Below, in pieces: positions 7,735 to 29,410 of a stretch of DNA of 30,268 nt. The translations under genes and the position numbers were made by a program. The notes under the pieces are model-generated. The model made no database searches, was not told the DNA's origin, and saw only the letters and a program-made list of their open reading frames with translations. The stretch's first letter is position 1; each line of letters opens with the position of its first letter. This DNA is from an archaeon (lineage in GTDB: Archaea; B1Sed10-29; JAJSAI01): positions 1 through 30,268 of the forward strand of contig JAJSAI010000017.1 of assembly GCA_024274695.1 (NCBI GenBank), in the 5' to 3' direction.

Positions 7735-7962
7735 ATGTCCCCGGCCAAAAAGGAGAGGAAGTCTCAGGTGCTCACCTGCCCAAAGTGCGGTGCAGAGGTA
7801 AAGGTATCTAATCCTACTGAGGGAAAGTTCGTGACATGCAGGAAGTGCGGCGCCCTGAGCGAGATTATCAAGAAGAGGCGCAAGTACGACCTCATACCCC
7901 TAGAGGAGTCAGGAGAAGCGCAGGATATTTCTGACATAGAGTTCAGCATGGATCTTGACTAA
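7735..7962 (+). CDS. Small zinc-ribbon protein
   Basis: This 75-residue protein has one zinc ribbon formed by LTCPKCGAEV (residues about 13-22) and VTCRKCGAL (about 33-41), giving two CxxC knuckles 17 residues apart. A basic stretch IKKRRKYDL follows, and the C-terminal 20 residues are acidic (EESGEAQDISDIEF). Such proteins bind zinc and often act as adaptors for nucleic acid or protein binding; no catalytic residue is seen and I cannot assign a function. It is leaderless from the TATA at 7699-7712. Its 3' end overlaps the convergent ubiA stop codon by four bases. Confidence 0.82.
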   Translation: MSPAKKERKSQVLTCPKCGAEVKVSNPTEGKFVTCRKCGALSEIIKKRRKYDLIPLEESGEAQDISDIEFSMDLD

Positions 7963-8282
7963 AACAACGCTCCTATCAAGAAGCCTACGAGGGCAATGCC
8001 CATCGCGGCTAGAGTGTTCCTTCTGACCCTTTCAAGATCTTTCGCCTGGTAAGCGCTGGGCAGGCACAGTAGTGTGATATATGCCGCGGTTATCGCGAAC
8101 GGGATGAACAACGGGTCGAGATAGTACGGTCCAGGCTGTAGGAAAGGAATGAAGAGAACTATTACGCTCAGTAGCATGAAAAAGGTGGCGTGCCACGCCG
8201 CGTTCTTTTCCCCTATGATCACGGGCAGAGTCATCCTGCCTGTCCTCACGTCTCCTGGAAGATCCTGGATGGACTTCAACAC
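7959..8282 (-). CDS. UbiA-family prenyltransferase, C-terminal part
   Basis: These 107 residues carry the second UbiA Asp motif (SIQDLPGDVRTG) and the last three or so membrane helices. The frame stays open from the TAG at 8361, 26 codons upstream. A GTG at 8282 or TTG at 8279 sits just after GGGAGG, so internal re-initiation is conceivable, giving a two-polypeptide enzyme. The true end is TAG at 7959-7961. Confidence 0.55.
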   Translation of the reverse strand: MLKSIQDLPGDVRTGRMTLPVIIGEKNAAWHATFFMLLSVIVLFIPFLQPGPYYLDPLFIPFAITAAYITLLCLPSAYQAKDLERVRRNTLAAMGIALVGFLIGALF

Positions 8283-8360
8283 TTCCCTCCCGAACCCGAG
8301 CAGGAATGCTGAAAGAGAAAGAATGTACGCGGGGCCGGTGATACTGCCCGCGGACGCCGC

Positions 8361-8807
8361 CTAGCCGAACAGGAATGGGATGGCCATACTCAGGCTTATC
8401 GCAAGATTGCCCAACACAGCGACTTTCTTCAGGAACCAGGAGTAGTAGAAGGAGAGTACTGCGAAGAAAAGGGCTATGAAGAAGCATCCCCAGTTTATCA
8501 GGGCTGCGGTGAGCACTCCTGCGGGCATGAAGAAAAGGAATGTGGCCAAAGCATGCTTCTCCTGGAGCTCCAGGGAAACGAGAGGCCTGTCCGTCCTTTT
8601 GTTCAGCCTGTCTGTCTCCAGATCAAAGTAGTCGTTTATGGCGAACGAACCCATTTCAATGAACAGGGGGGACAGGAAAACTGGGATCATCAAGCTCAGG
8701 GGAGGCACTCCTGAAGCGCCCATCACCGCGCCTATCAGTGCCGCGATTCCGAGGAACACCCCGTGCTCTAGCCGGGTAAGCCTCCAGAACGCGCGCGCCT
8801 TTTTCAA
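8361..8807 (-). CDS. UbiA-family prenyltransferase, N-terminal part up to TAG
   Basis: These 148 residues hold the first half of the UbiA fold, with about four membrane helices and the Mg-binding motif NDYFDLETD followed by NKRTDRPL. The start is TTG 8807, supported by GGTGA seven bases upstream. Alone it lacks the second Asp motif and would not be an active prenyltransferase. Confidence 0.7.
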   Translation of the reverse strand: MKKARAFWRLTRLEHGVFLGIAALIGAVMGASGVPPLSLMIPVFLSPLFIEMGSFAINDYFDLETDRLNKRTDRPLVSLELQEKHALATFLFFMPAGVLTAALINWGCFFIALFFAVLSFYYSWFLKKVAVLGNLAISLSMAIPFLFG

Positions 8808-8813
8808 GAGTGC

Positions 8814-9521
8814 TCACCTAGCGAGGCTCTCCCAGAGCACTTCCTCCTTCGGGTTGACCACTATCCCCTTGTCAGTTATCTTGTAGGGATGCAGTTTCTT
8901 GTCGTGGTCAGTTCCTCTCATCTTTCTTATGAATATGACCCTCTGAGGGGGCTTGAAGTACAGTGCGATAACCCCGTCAGTTATGAACTCTTCAACCCCG
9001 AACCTGGAGAACTGGTCCCTCTTCCCGAAGGTCTCCGAGGTAAGAACAGTAGTGCACTTCAGTTCCTTCAGCTCGTCAACCAGCCTGAACAGGGAGTACC
9101 TGAGTTGTGACTCGCTCGGCATCCACATCCCGAAAGCAGTGGTGGAATCTATCACGAGCCTCTTTGCCTTGAGCTCGTCCACCAGCTCCTTTATTTTCGC
9201 TATCTCTTCGTCAAACCTTCTCGCAAACTCCGAGGGCTTTATCATCCCGACCCTGTAGAGTCTTATGAGCCCTTCATGCTCGTACTTTGCAAGATCCCAC
9301 CTGAAGTTCCGCACGTTCCACCACAGGTTGGTGACCCCTTCTTCCAGGGTAATGTATATGCCAGGGTCGTTGTACAATGCGGCCCCGTTGTAAATGTACT
9401 GCATTGCGAAGATAGTCTTCCCAGTACCTGCTCCTCCTGAAACAAGAACGCTTGCTCCTGGAAGGAACCCTCCCCTTAGAAGAGGGTCGAGTCCCGGTAT
9501 TCCTGTGGCTACTCTGTCCAT
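8814..9521 (-). CDS. KaiC/RAD55-like RecA-superfamily ATPase
   Basis: This 235-residue single-domain ATPase has the KaiC-family N-terminus (RVATGIPGLDPLLRGG), Walker A SGGAGTGKTIFA at about residues 28-39, and Walker B RLVIDSTTAF near residue 122. The C-terminal part contains FITDGVIALYF and IRKMRGTDHDKKLHPYKI, both typical of archaeal KaiC-like proteins. KaiC-like ATPases in archaea are linked to signalling and regulation; a specific role is unknown. The ATG is 26-27 nt from the palindromic TATA at 9543-9552, which it shares with the divergent RuBisCO gene, so the two may be co-regulated. The UbiA frame starts six bases downstream of its stop. Confidence 0.88.
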   Translation of the reverse strand: MDRVATGIPGLDPLLRGGFLPGASVLVSGGAGTGKTIFAMQYIYNGAALYNDPGIYITLEEGVTNLWWNVRNFRWDLAKYEHEGLIRLYRVGMIKPSEFARRFDEEIAKIKELVDELKAKRLVIDSTTAFGMWMPSESQLRYSLFRLVDELKELKCTTVLTSETFGKRDQFSRFGVEEFITDGVIALYFKPPQRVIFIRKMRGTDHDKKLHPYKITDKGIVVNPKEEVLWESLAR

Positions 9522-9574: not shown

Positions 9575-10807
9575 ATGGGAGTGTACGAGGATTTTGTTGA
9601 CCTATCATACAATCCTTCTGAAAGGGATCTTGTTTGCACGTTTGAACTGAGCCCTTGCACCAGGAGGGCTGCGGGAGCGGTCGCGGCAGAATCCAGTATA
9701 GGAACCTGGACAAAGCTCACCACCCTTTCTGAAAAAACCAAGAAACGGCTCATGGCAAGGGTATTCTACATGGATGGGAAAAAGATCAAGGTGGCCTATC
9801 ATCCTGAACTGTTCGAGGAAAACAACATGCCCCAGATACTAAGCTCGATAGCAGGAAACATTTTTGGTATGAAGGAAGTGAAAAAACTCAGGCTCTTGGA
9901 CGTGAGGTTTCCTAGGAGGATAGCAAAATCCTTCCCAGGCCCTGCCTTCGGGATAAAAGGGATAAGAAAACTCACTGGAGTGAAGCACAGGCCGCTCATA
10001 GGGACCATAGTAAAACCGAAACTAGGCCTAAGCCCTGAAGAGCATGCCCGGGTCGCGTACGAGGCTTGGGTAGGAGGATGCGACATAGTCAAGGATGATG
10101 AGAACCTCAGCAGCCAGAAGTTCAACAGCTTCCTGAAAAGAATTGAGGCCACGCTCAAAGCAAAGAGAAAGGCCGAGAAGGAGACCGGAGAGGTCAAGAT
10201 ATACATGCCCAACGTGACCGCGGAGACGAAGGGAATGCTCAGGAGGGCTAAAGAGGTAAAGAAAAGAGCGGGAGAGTACGTCATGGTTGACGTTCTGACC
10301 GCGGGGTTCGCGGGAGTGCAGACCCTGAGGGAAGAGGAGCTGGGCAGAGTGATTCACGCTCACAGGGCAATGCACGCGGCCCTAACCCGGAGCAGGGACT
10401 TCGGTATCAGCATGAGCGTGCTCGCCAGAGTGTTCAGAACAATAGGAGTGGACCAGCTGCACGTGGGCACAGGGGTTGGCAAGATGGCGGAAGGCAGGGA
10501 CAAGGTCCTGGAAAACGTTCATGCCCTGACTGACGAGTACTACAACATCAAAAAAACCCTGCCAGTGGCTTCAGGAGGACTGCATCCAGGGATGGTTCCT
10601 GACTTGTTCAAGATTTTCGGTAAGGATGTGGTGATACAGGCAGGGGGAGGAGTACACGGGCACCCGAAGGGAACCCGGGCAGGAGCAGTGGCGCTGAGGG
10701 CAGCGGTTGAAGCCGTCGCGCAGGGAGAAACACTGACATGGGCTGCTGCAAGAACCCCTGAACTTCGGGAGGCTCTAGCGCACTGGAAAACGAGGACAAA
10801 GAAATAA
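9575..10807 (+). CDS. rbcL: Ribulose-1,5-bisphosphate carboxylase, form III (large subunit)
   Basis: This 410-residue protein is a complete RuBisCO of the archaeal form III type. Catalytic residues are present: K147 and K149 in GTIVKPKLGL, the carbamylated Lys K173 with D175 and E176 in GGCDIVKDDENL, H263-R264 in HAHRAMHAA, H296 in DQLHVGTGVGKM with loop-6 Lys K303, S333 in SGGLHPG, and the phosphate-binding AGGGVHGHP. It carboxylates RuBP to two 3-phosphoglycerate; form III usually serves AMP/nucleoside salvage rather than the Calvin cycle. No small subunit, AMP phosphorylase or ribose-1,5-bisphosphate isomerase gene lies in the window. It is leaderless from the TATA at 9543-9552. A RuBisCO-like (form IV) protein is excluded by the intact active site. 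Confidence 0.95.
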   Translation: MGVYEDFVDLSYNPSERDLVCTFELSPCTRRAAGAVAAESSIGTWTKLTTLSEKTKKRLMARVFYMDGKKIKVAYHPELFEENNMPQILSSIAGNIFGMKEVKKLRLLDVRFPRRIAKSFPGPAFGIKGIRKLTGVKHRPLIGTIVKPKLGLSPEEHARVAYEAWVGGCDIVKDDENLSSQKFNSFLKRIEATLKAKRKAEKETGEVKIYMPNVTAETKGMLRRAKEVKKRAGEYVMVDVLTAGFAGVQTLREEELGRVIHAHRAMHAALTRSRDFGISMSVLARVFRTIGVDQLHVGTGVGKMAEGRDKVLENVHALTDEYYNIKKTLPVASGGLHPGMVPDLFKIFGKDVVIQAGGGVHGHPKGTRAGAVALRAAVEAVAQGETLTWAAARTPELREALAHWKTRTKK

Positions 10808-21448: not shown

Positions 21449-21449
21449 G

Positions 21450-21582
21450 CGGGCCCAGGGGGATTCGAACCCCCGATCTACAGCTCTCTCCGATTGCTCC
21501 AATTCTTTTCCGCGAGCGCTTTTCTTGGAAAGAAAAGGGCTCTTAGGAGGCTGTCGCCCTATCCAGACTAGGCTATGGGCCC
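21450..21582 (-). tRNA. tRNA-Arg (anticodon CCT) with 58-nt intron
   Basis: The minus strand folds as a complete tRNA. The acceptor GGGCCCA/TGGGCCC, D-arm GCCT...GGGC, anticodon stem ACAGC/GCTGT and T-arm GGGGG-TTCGAAT-CCCCC are all perfectly or wobble paired. The loop reads CT-CCT-A before the intron and resumes with A38, so the anticodon is CCT, reading AGG. Discriminator is G and CCA is not encoded. AGG is a heavily used Arg codon here. A TATA-like CTTTAAAAC 29-37 nt upstream (at 21611-21619), overlapping the MFS stop codon, is a plausible promoter. Confidence 0.92.
21486..21543 (-). other. tRNA-Arg intron at canonical position 37/38
   Basis: The exon CTCC pairs with intron GGAG as the central 4-bp helix. 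The 5' bulge TAA and 3' bulge AGA are each cut after the second base, leaving A37 joined to A38. The inner stem GAGC-c-CTTTTCTT pairs with AAGAAAAG-c-GCTC. This is a relaxed bulge-helix-bulge substrate for the archaeal splicing endonuclease. Confidence 0.85.
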
Positions 21583-26301: not shown

Positions 26302-26348
26302 GCGCGAGAGCAGAACTTTATTAGCCTCTTCAGGAGGTGCCTTGTAAG

Positions 26349-27548
26349 ATGGAAAAGAGTTCTAAAGAGTACTACGAGTTCAAGAAGAAGTTGAAGGAGC
26401 TCAAGCAGATAAGGGGACAGGGAACAGAGCTCATAAGCATTTACCTCGCTCCAGGATACAACGTGAGCGAGATGAGCAACAGGCTTAGGGACGAGTACGG
26501 GCAGGCGAGTAATATCAAGAGCAAGCAAACCCGGAAGAACGTTCAGGCCGCGATAGAAAGGATAATCCACCTTCTCAAGGGAGTCAACAAGCCTCCTGAG
26601 AACGGTATAGCTATCTTCTGTGGTAATGTTAACGGGAAAATAGAATTGTATACCATAATCCCTCCTGAACCAGTTAACGTGACACTTTACCGATGTGACT
26701 CCACGTTCTTCCTGGATCCCCTGTTAGAGCTAATCCAGCCCTCTGAAGTGTACGGGCTCATGACCATAGACCGGAAAGAAGCCACGATAGCGCTCCTGAA
26801 GGGGAAGAGGGTTGAGATCGTCAACCACTTCGAGTCCTACGTGCCAGGAAAGCATAGGGCAGGGGGGCAGTCCAGCGTAAGGTTCGAGAGGCTCATAGAA
26901 ATCGCTGCCCACGAGTTCTTCAAGAAGGTGGGCGAGGCAGCGAACAAGGTCTTCTCAGACCCAAGCGTCAAGGGAGTAATAATCGGCGGCCCAGGACCGA
27001 CAAAGAACTACTTCCTGAACGAGGACTACCTGAACCACGTGGTCAAGGGAAAGATAGTGGGAACAATAGACACAGGATACACCGACGAGATGGGAATAAA
27101 GGAGATGGTGGACAGATCAGGAGAGATAATGGAGGAACTCGAGGCCACGAGAGAGAAAAAACTTGTGGACAAGTTCATGACCGAAGTGGCAAAAGGAGGG
27201 CTTGCCACCTACGGGGAAAAGGAAGTTAGGCAGGCTCTTGAGAACGGCCAGGTTGACACGCTCCTACTCTCAGAAGACCTTGACTGGTTAAGGGTAAAGG
27301 CAAGGTGCCAGGCCTGCGGAAAAGAGTACGAGCTCACCGTACGGGACAAGAACAAGATCCCGGACAGGTGCAGTGACTGCGGGGGCAAACTGGAAGTTGT
27401 TGAAGAAAAACTCCTTGTCGAAGATCTTGCGGAGCTGGCGGAGCAGATGGGCACCAAGGTGGAGATGATCTCCTCCGACACCCCTGAAGGCGCACAGTTC
27501 CTGAACGCGTTCGGAGGCATAGGCGCCCTGCTAAGGTTCAAAGCGTGA
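26349..27548 (+). CDS. prf1: Peptide chain release factor aRF1
   Basis: This 399-residue protein recognises all three stop codons and triggers peptide release. The NIKS motif of the stop-codon-reading domain is at about residues 55-58 (ASNIKSKQTRKNV), with GTELISIYLAP before it. The GGQ catalytic motif is at about residues 172-174 (GKHRAGGQSSVRFERL). The third domain has a zinc ribbon formed by RCQACGKEYEL and DRCSDCGGKLE. All key motifs are intact. The start is ATG 26349, nine bases after AGGAGGTG; a GTG at 26337 overlaps that site and is unlikely. truD follows by six bases. Confidence 0.95.
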   Translation: MEKSSKEYYEFKKKLKELKQIRGQGTELISIYLAPGYNVSEMSNRLRDEYGQASNIKSKQTRKNVQAAIERIIHLLKGVNKPPENGIAIFCGNVNGKIELYTIIPPEPVNVTLYRCDSTFFLDPLLELIQPSEVYGLMTIDRKEATIALLKGKRVEIVNHFESYVPGKHRAGGQSSVRFERLIEIAAHEFFKKVGEAANKVFSDPSVKGVIIGGPGPTKNYFLNEDYLNHVVKGKIVGTIDTGYTDEMGIKEMVDRSGEIMEELEATREKKLVDKFMTEVAKGGLATYGEKEVRQALENGQVDTLLLSEDLDWLRVKARCQACGKEYELTVRDKNKIPDRCSDCGGKLEVVEEKLLVEDLAELAEQMGTKVEMISSDTPEGAQFLNAFGGIGALLRFKA

Positions 27549-27554
27549 GCCAGG

Positions 27555-28673
27555 ATGGCCTACGAAATAAAAAGGGTGCCGGAAGACTTCGTGGTCGAGG
27601 AGATAGATCCAGAAAAAAAGGTAATAGAATTAGGCTGGACTCCCGAGTTCGACCATGAGAGCAGGGGACAGCATCTTGTCTGCGTGCTCGAAAAAAGAGA
27701 CTACGACACACACCTTGCAATGAAAAGGATAGCAAGAGCCCTAAGAATATCCCAAGAAAGAATAGGATACGCTGGGACCAAGGACAAGAAGGCAGTCACC
27801 ACCCAAAGAATTTCAATACAAGGCGTGAAAAAAGAGGATGTTGAAAAACTGTCCCTGCAGGACCTAACACTAAAACCCTGGCACTATTCTGAAAAAAAGA
27901 TAAAACTCGGGGACCTGTGGGGAAACAGGTTCACGATAAAGGTGTACTCTGACTCTCCCCCGAAGACAGAAAACCCTGGGAAGATCCCGAACTTTTTCGG
28001 GGAGCAGAGGTTCGGGAGCATAAGACCCATAACACATCTCGTGGGCAAAAAGATTGTGGAAGGCGACTTCGAGGGCGCTGTTAAAACATACCTTGCTGAA
28101 GTGTTTGAAGGAGAGGCGTCACAGGCCAAAGAGGCCAGGAAAGCGCTCCAGCAGGCGTGGGACTACAAGAAAGCACTGCAGGAGTTCCCTAAAAAGTACA
28201 AGTACGAGAGAGCGATGCTGAACCATCTTGTCAAGCACCCCGGAGACTACGTGGGAGCCCTACGCGCTCTACCGAAAAACCTTAGGATAATGTTCGTTTA
28301 CGCGTACCAGTCCCACTTGTTCAACAAGTTCCTTGAAAAGGTTATTGAAAGAGGGCTTGAGTACGAGGAAGGCCCACTGTACGGGTACGCTCTCAAGCCA
28401 AGGAACTACCTTGAGAAAGAGGTTCTCGAGGAAGAAGGGGTGAGCCTCGAGAATTTCAGGATAAAGAACATGCCCGAACTAAGCTCAAAAGGAAAACGCA
28501 GGCCCCTGTGGGTCAAGCCCGTCGGATTCCGGATACTTGAAAGAGGCGAAGGGTACTACGTGCTCAGGTTCGCGTTACCAAAAGGATGCTACGCGACAGT
28601 GGTGGTTGATTACTTGTTTGGTGGCGCTGGGAGGGGGATTCGAACCCCCGAAGGCCGAAGCCAACTGGCTTAG
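27555..28673 (+). CDS. truD: tRNA pseudouridine synthase TruD
   Basis: TruD converts U13 of tRNA to pseudouridine. The catalytic Asp is in GYAGTKDKKAVTTQ (about residue 77). Other family features are VPEDFVVEEI at the N-terminus, NFFGEQRFGS with the conserved Phe-Gly-x-Gln-Arg-Phe-Gly segment, VYAYQSHLFNKFL, and the closing strand LPKGCYATVVV. Residues 1-352 fit TruD, but the frame has no stop there. It runs on into the antisense of tRNA-Ser, adding about 17 residues (GRGIRTPEGRSQLA) before TAG at 28671-28673. It is cotranscribed with aRF1. Confidence 0.93.
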   Translation: MAYEIKRVPEDFVVEEIDPEKKVIELGWTPEFDHESRGQHLVCVLEKRDYDTHLAMKRIARALRISQERIGYAGTKDKKAVTTQRISIQGVKKEDVEKLSLQDLTLKPWHYSEKKIKLGDLWGNRFTIKVYSDSPPKTENPGKIPNFFGEQRFGSIRPITHLVGKKIVEGDFEGAVKTYLAEVFEGEASQAKEARKALQQAWDYKKALQEFPKKYKYERAMLNHLVKHPGDYVGALRALPKNLRIMFVYAYQSHLFNKFLEKVIERGLEYEEGPLYGYALKPRNYLEKEVLEEEGVSLENFRIKNMPELSSKGKRRPLWVKPVGFRILERGEGYYVLRFALPKGCYATVVVDYLFGGAGRGIRTPEGRSQLA

Positions 28674-28711: not shown

Positions 28712-29410
28712 CTATCTTTTTTTGAGTGATAGGATTTTAAATGGTTTTGCCCAGGACTGCAGGACAAGCCGGGACAGGAACGTCACCTGGGACAGGACCT
28801 GCTTGATGTTGGTGAACTGCCTGTGTAGCCCCAGTCCTGGAGGGTAGTCTACTTTGACCGGAACGTACACTATCTTCATCCCCTTTGATAGGGCCTTGTA
28901 GTTCATTTCTGCCTCTATCTGGAACCTGTCCTGCTTCAGGCCCAACGAGTTCCAGTCCTTTTTGGATATCACGAAAAACCCGGACAGCACGTCCCTCGCC
29001 AGCCGGCCTGTGGCCAGGAACAAGGAGAGTATTGAAAGGATATTGTTTATTCTCCTGCCGAAGTGCATTACCCTGAACGGCCTTTTTCCCACGACAAGAG
29101 TTCCAGACCCCGCTTTTTCCAGGAGAAGAGGGATCTGTTCAGGGTGAAACTGGCTAGCGTCTATGAACACGAGGAAACGTCCTTTCGCGTGGGACGCGCC
29201 TGTTCTCATGGCGGCGCCCTTTCCCCTGTTCTCAGGGTGTGATATCACGGTCGCGCCGGCTTCAGCCGCTTTTTCTTTGGTCCGGTCGGACGAACCGTCA
29301 TCAACAACTATGACCTCGTATTCTTTTGACACTCTCTTTATTCTCCTGACAGTGTCAGATATGTCCTTTTCCTCGTTGTAGGCCGGGACTATCACGCTCG
29401 CTTTGACCAC
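28712..29410 (-). CDS. Family 2 glycosyltransferase (dolichol-phosphate sugar transferase-like)
   Basis: This 232-residue protein has the GT-A fold of family 2: VIVPAYNEEKDISDTV at the N-terminus, VIVVDDGSSDRTKEKA near residue 34, and NRGKGAAMRTGASHAKGRF near residue 61. GT2 enzymes of this size transfer a sugar from a nucleotide donor, often to dolichol phosphate, for glycoprotein or S-layer glycan synthesis. The DxD metal motif is changed: the site reads FIDASQFHPEQI, with D84 kept and the second Asp replaced by Ser86. The start is GTG 29410, four bases past the gene at 29417, and the stop is TAG. There is no C-terminal membrane domain. Confidence 0.87.
   Translation of the reverse strand: MVKASVIVPAYNEEKDISDTVRRIKRVSKEYEVIVVDDGSSDRTKEKAAEAGATVISHPENRGKGAAMRTGASHAKGRFLVFIDASQFHPEQIPLLLEKAGSGTLVVGKRPFRVMHFGRRINNILSILSLFLATGRLARDVLSGFFVISKKDWNSLGLKQDRFQIEAEMNYKALSKGMKIVYVPVKVDYPPGLGLHRQFTNIKQVLSQVTFLSRLVLQSWAKPFKILSLKKR
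28735..28742 (-). promoter_or_regulatory. TATA box of tRNA-Ser inside the glycosyltransferase gene
   Basis: The minus strand reads ATTTAAAA, centred about 32 nt before the tRNA 5' end. It lies in the last codons of the glycosyltransferase, so the tRNA has a plausible promoter of its own. Confidence 0.5.

Follow-up and report, generated by a model that had tools for sequence, protein, structure and literature searches.

Does an archaeal gene for a membrane-lipid enzyme really carry a stop codon in its middle, and if it does, what happens to its function? This question is raised by a UbiA-family prenyltransferase gene in the window, by which we mean the whole stretch of 30,268 nucleotides analysed (contig C12 of an 825 kb, 32-contig draft genome that is 91% complete). 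A sequence-only reading had noticed the stop without giving the strand; the gene runs from 8807 to 7959 on the minus strand. Its parts and its upstream neighbour are these.

7959..8807, minus strand: UbiA-family prenyltransferase gene, DGGGPS-like, 282 codons, with an internal and a terminal TAG (translation, Pfam PF01040, PDB 6m31, AlphaFold)
8364..8807, minus strand: the 148 codons preceding the internal TAG; motif 1 (N58, D62, D66) and motif 2 (Y122, K127) lie here
8361..8363, minus strand: the internal TAG (codon 149), in frame, close to where predicted transmembrane helix 4 (residues 130-153) ends
7959..8360, minus strand: everything that follows the internal TAG: motif 3 (D182, D186), the transmembrane helices from 5 on, and the terminal stop
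8814..9521, minus strand, the same as the UbiA gene: KaiC-family ATPase, directly upstream (Pfam PF06745)

Elsewhere in the window, on the plus strand, there are a RuBisCO large-chain gene (9575-10807), full-length by Pfam and found here in a DPANN archaeon, and a gene for an exosortase/archaeosortase-family membrane protein (PF09721; 1661-2365), whose match is the C-terminal half of the model.

The UbiA frame extends from a TTG start at 8807 to a TAG at 7961-7959 and is open apart from the TAG at 8363-8361. AGGTGA precedes the TTG, and both the start codon and the ribosome-binding site look good. In 849 bases there are one stop, zero indels and no further lesion. When the TAG is read as a residue, one Pfam UbiA match spans it (residues 21-244, E 8e-41), which means that we are dealing with one gene rather than with two chance open reading frames. 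Translation and Pfam therefore bear out the earlier claim of a full-length gene of 282 codons, open on both sides of the TAG, and the Asp motifs do lie on opposite sides of it, as had been noticed (N58/D62/D66 before, D182/D186 after). Compensating frameshifts around the TAG were considered and rejected; the alignment with relatives of the same order is free of gaps there.

If the TAG is read through, the product would probably be digeranylgeranylglyceryl phosphate synthase (DGGGPS). We base this on three things: the closest solved structure, a confident AlphaFold model, and invariant family residues retained to either side of the TAG. Among solved structures the nearest in sequence is 6m31, the DGGGPS of Methanocaldococcus jannaschii (87 bits), and the model of the read-through protein, built with 19 relatives (pLDDT 89.5, pTM 0.88), has the same entry as its best structural match (Foldseek E 1.8e-12, TM 0.72). 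Following the motif definitions for the M. jannaschii enzyme (PMC9385802), motif 1, N-x3-D-x3-D, and motif 2, Y-x4-K, are both present. Motif 3 has three Asp in M. jannaschii, D180, D183 and D187; the last two correspond to D182 and D186, while the first is Ser here, as it is in 6/6 relatives of the same order. The family-invariant residues kept after the TAG are G171, R174, E175, D182, G185, D186, R262 and M269. In length, fold, motif 1, motif 2 and two of the three motif 3 Asp the protein resembles M. jannaschii DGGGPS (PDB 6m31, 6m34, 7bpu), from which the window gene differs by its internal TAG and by the Ser at D180. The UbiA homologues of Archaeoglobus fulgidus (4tq3-4tq6) and Aeropyrum pernix (4od4, 4od5) share the membrane fold and the Asp motifs, but they are only ~21% identical and rank below DGGGPS in the fold search. 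The substrate can be assigned only tentatively, since the NCBIfam equivalog cut-offs, which are annotation thresholds and not biochemical features, are not reached: the best model, NF009523 'prenyltransferase', gives 226.7 bits against a cut-off of 269, and the GGGP geranylgeranyltransferase models give 144 bits against 296 and 353.

What do relatives have in place of the TAG? Among named organisms, the protein's best relatives come from Micrarchaeota, a neighbouring phylum in which DGGGPS has been described in all major lineages (PMC12892359). The organism's own phylum, small with its 19 genomes, may be Iainarchaeota, a sister group. No in-frame stop occurs in any of 76 homologues, a set dominated by Micrarchaeota, or in the 21 other matches from the organism's own phylum. 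In the aligned column, which follows an invariant Gly, none of 82 relatives has a stop; the residues are N, S, D, A, G, C or T, mostly the first five. The check on close relatives that the earlier reading had proposed thus gives a sense codon in every homologue examined, the nearest of which is only 46% identical. Among the genomes compared there is no relative of the same genus or family, and none is close enough to date the TAG. Within the phylum a relative is present in all five genomes that are at least 90% complete and in 16/19 overall.

A gene that has been dead for some time should show it beyond the stop, and here the indications are mixed. Identity to the closest relative (L114) is 54% before the TAG and 38% after it, and the codon-usage score per codon falls from 0.28 to 0.14. 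The after-minus-before profile score is the lowest of 83 sequences, with a profile dominated by another phylum; for that reason we give more weight to a tree-based test. On a fixed tree, the ratio of branch lengths after and before the TAG has a log2 of 0.50 (5-95% -0.17 to 0.98), and two relatives have 0.58 (L114) and 0.71 (L115), so that relaxation after the TAG is not significant in this test. GC at third codon positions is 0.72 before and 0.66 after, like that of neighbouring genes. The sequences thus give no clear sign of decay after the TAG, and mild relaxation would be compatible with them. Judged by the tree-based test, in which relaxation falls short of significance, the TAG would be either recent or not real.

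We consider it somewhat better than an even chance (about 0.52) that the TAG is either a consensus error of one base or an allele of a minority that the assembly took up, and so most likely absent from the gene of most cells. If so, the gene would be the ordinary DGGGP synthase of a DPANN archaeon represented by a draft genome only, and the true gene would encode a normal membrane enzyme of 282 residues. Its task would be to attach the second geranylgeranyl chain to the glycerol backbone. A wrong or rare base is what the intactness of everything else and the expected importance of the gene suggest to us. The single lesion, the retained catalytic motifs, the lack of significant relaxation and the failure to find recoding machinery all speak for it. 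So do the third-position GC, the start codon with its ribosome-binding site, the spread of relatives through the phylum and of DGGGPS through Micrarchaeota, and the draft state of the genome. The partner genes of the pathway, present and with no internal stop, count on the same side: two polyprenyl synthases (GGPP synthase), GGGPS, CarS and GGR; a GGR-family protein (L145:12952-14223) is encoded in a stretch of normal base composition. The lower identity, profile score and codon-usage score after the TAG speak against it, as does the presence of a second UbiA gene. The UbiA gene is also the only one in the window recognised as interrupted, which does not point to an assembly rich in errors throughout.

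The strongest competitor, which we rate as a serious though lesser possibility, is a real TAG of recent origin: the native DGGGPS of this strain would just have been inactivated by a nonsense mutation, and the cell would either go without the step, have it supplied from outside by a host or partner, or leave it to the other UbiA. A product stopped at the TAG would lack, by the predicted helices, everything from helix 5 onward and with it motif 3. The earlier suggestion to search the genome for a second UbiA proved fruitful, and an intact one was found on contig C14.

G000:C14:27241-28083: second UbiA gene, intact, 281 aa, in a segment of GC 0.32-0.36 with surroundings of ~0.52
L145:5526-8919 (G000:C14): AT-rich cassette of a GGR-superfamily reductase, a 216-aa protein with no Pfam match, the second UbiA and a KaiC

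A KaiC gene adjoins the UbiA gene at both loci.

The second UbiA has no close counterpart in any of the 18 remaining genomes of the phylum, and it looks horizontally acquired, as does the cassette that contains it. A viral origin was considered and rejected, as no relative was found in viral contigs. This segment, with its intact UbiA, its reductase and its KaiC, counts in favour of a recent loss of the native gene, and so does the lower identity after the TAG; the second UbiA could relieve selection on the native gene. It keeps motif 1 as N-D-x(2)-D-x(3)-D and motif 3 as D-x2-D-x3-D, but it has Ala where the Lys of motif 2 is expected (PMC9385802). BLASTP between the two UbiA proteins gives no significant match, and the second matches the solved DGGGPS more weakly, with 45 bits against 87. 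On these sequences it has diverged too far for a substitution of the window's DGGGPS to be taken for granted. Together with the tree-based test, these are the points that weigh against a recent null. A bolder version, in which the native DGGGPS has just been lost and the acquired cassette of UbiA, reductase and KaiC has taken over its step, so that we would be looking at the replacement of a core lipid enzyme in progress, seems to us improbable.

Could the TAG be translated as an amino acid, through pyrrolysine or a suppressor tRNA? Constraint that persists past the TAG in the tree-based test and the variety of residues tolerated in the aligned column would suit this idea. The machinery around it would not.

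26337..27548, plus strand: aRF1 with intact GTELISIYLAPG, ASNIKS, YRCDSTF and GGQ (TIGR03676, 529 bits against a cut-off of 235)
27555-28673: TruD gene, ending in TAG
28712-29410: glycosyltransferase gene, ending in TAG
L108: tRNA-Thr(TGT), assigned by hand
L110:1501: tRNA-Tyr(GTA), assigned by hand
L110:2312: tRNA-Gln(TTG), assigned by hand
L143: tRNA-Lys(TTT), assigned by hand
L144: tRNA-His(GTG)-like, assigned by hand

The release factor thus has canonical stop-recognition motifs (GTxLIS, NIKS, YxCxxxF) as well as GGQ. TAG ends ~10 of 88 coding frames (~11%) in the window and 18 other loci of the genome. The sequence-only reading had counted four other frames in which TAG is the normal stop; that TAG is a normal stop stands, while the count comes down to two other well-supported genes, TruD and the glycosyltransferase, plus the UbiA gene's own terminal TAG. 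Its view that global recoding is unlikely agrees with the release factor and with this usage. The suppressor checks it had suggested found neither pylS nor a tRNA with a CTA anticodon. In the 91% complete genome, a profile search that recovers pylS in Methanosarcina acetivorans, the positive control, found no PylS N-terminal domain; the C-terminal model matched only two long frames (541 and 501 codons), far below the cut-off and presumably other synthetases. None of ~40 tRNA genes has a CTA anticodon, in a set from which a few expected tRNAs (e. g. Leu-TAA and Pro-TGG) are also missing; intron-bearing genes were read by hand, and ambiguous ARAGORN calls among them are those assigned above. Downstream of the TAG the RNA folds in an ordinary way (z -0.58). 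The conserved sequence that continues past the in-frame TAG is reminiscent of the pyrrolysine recoding of Methanosarcina and Sifarchaeia. In archaea such recoding accompanies pylTSBCD and methylamine methyltransferases (PMC9723677), whereas the present gene does not encode a methylamine methyltransferase and stands in a genome where TAG is an ordinary stop. Recoding of TAG is contradicted by these findings, and we regard translation of this one TAG as very unlikely.

Some tRNA genes have features worth recording. A tRNA-Arg(CCT) in the window (21449-21582, minus strand) has a 58-base intron in the anticodon loop; the tRNA scan with default settings overlooked it, and the genome-wide RF00005 table does not list it. 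By eye, introns apparently also lie outside the anticodon loop, in the D-arm of Lys(TTT) L143 and Gln(TTG) L110:2312-2416 and in the T-arm of the His(GTG)-like L144.

The last idea is that of a split product, two chains of which the second would start by re-initiation within the gene.

8280..8282, minus strand: GTG (Val176), the proposed re-initiation codon, with GGGAGG upstream coding for a conserved Gly-Arg

The GGGAGG pointed out earlier is indeed there, three bases upstream of GTG 8282, but re-initiation is unlikely, and the working of the gene as two chains is the least probable of the readings weighed here, because these bases simply code for the conserved Gly-Arg of a G-R-E motif and the product, starting at residue 176 inside a predicted helix (158-181), would be missing the greater part of transmembrane helix 5; moreover, the relative L114 has the same GGGAGGGAA, there before ATT, GTG stands at codon 176 in only 3/23 relatives, and no ATG, GTG or TTG occurs in frame between the TAG and GTG 8282. 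With no pylS, no CTA anticodon among the ~40 tRNA genes, a canonical aRF1 and a re-initiation signal that is a by-product of conserved codons, the unusual expression mechanism once envisaged for this gene is not supported.

Several things follow, depending on which of the two better readings is correct. If the TAG is an artefact of sequencing or assembly, annotation pipelines would split or drop a core lipid gene of this genome, and a DPANN archaeon could then be misread as having lost its lipid synthesis. A real TAG would offer a rare view of a core membrane-lipid gene just as it is being lost, in a genome where a foreign relative might take its place.
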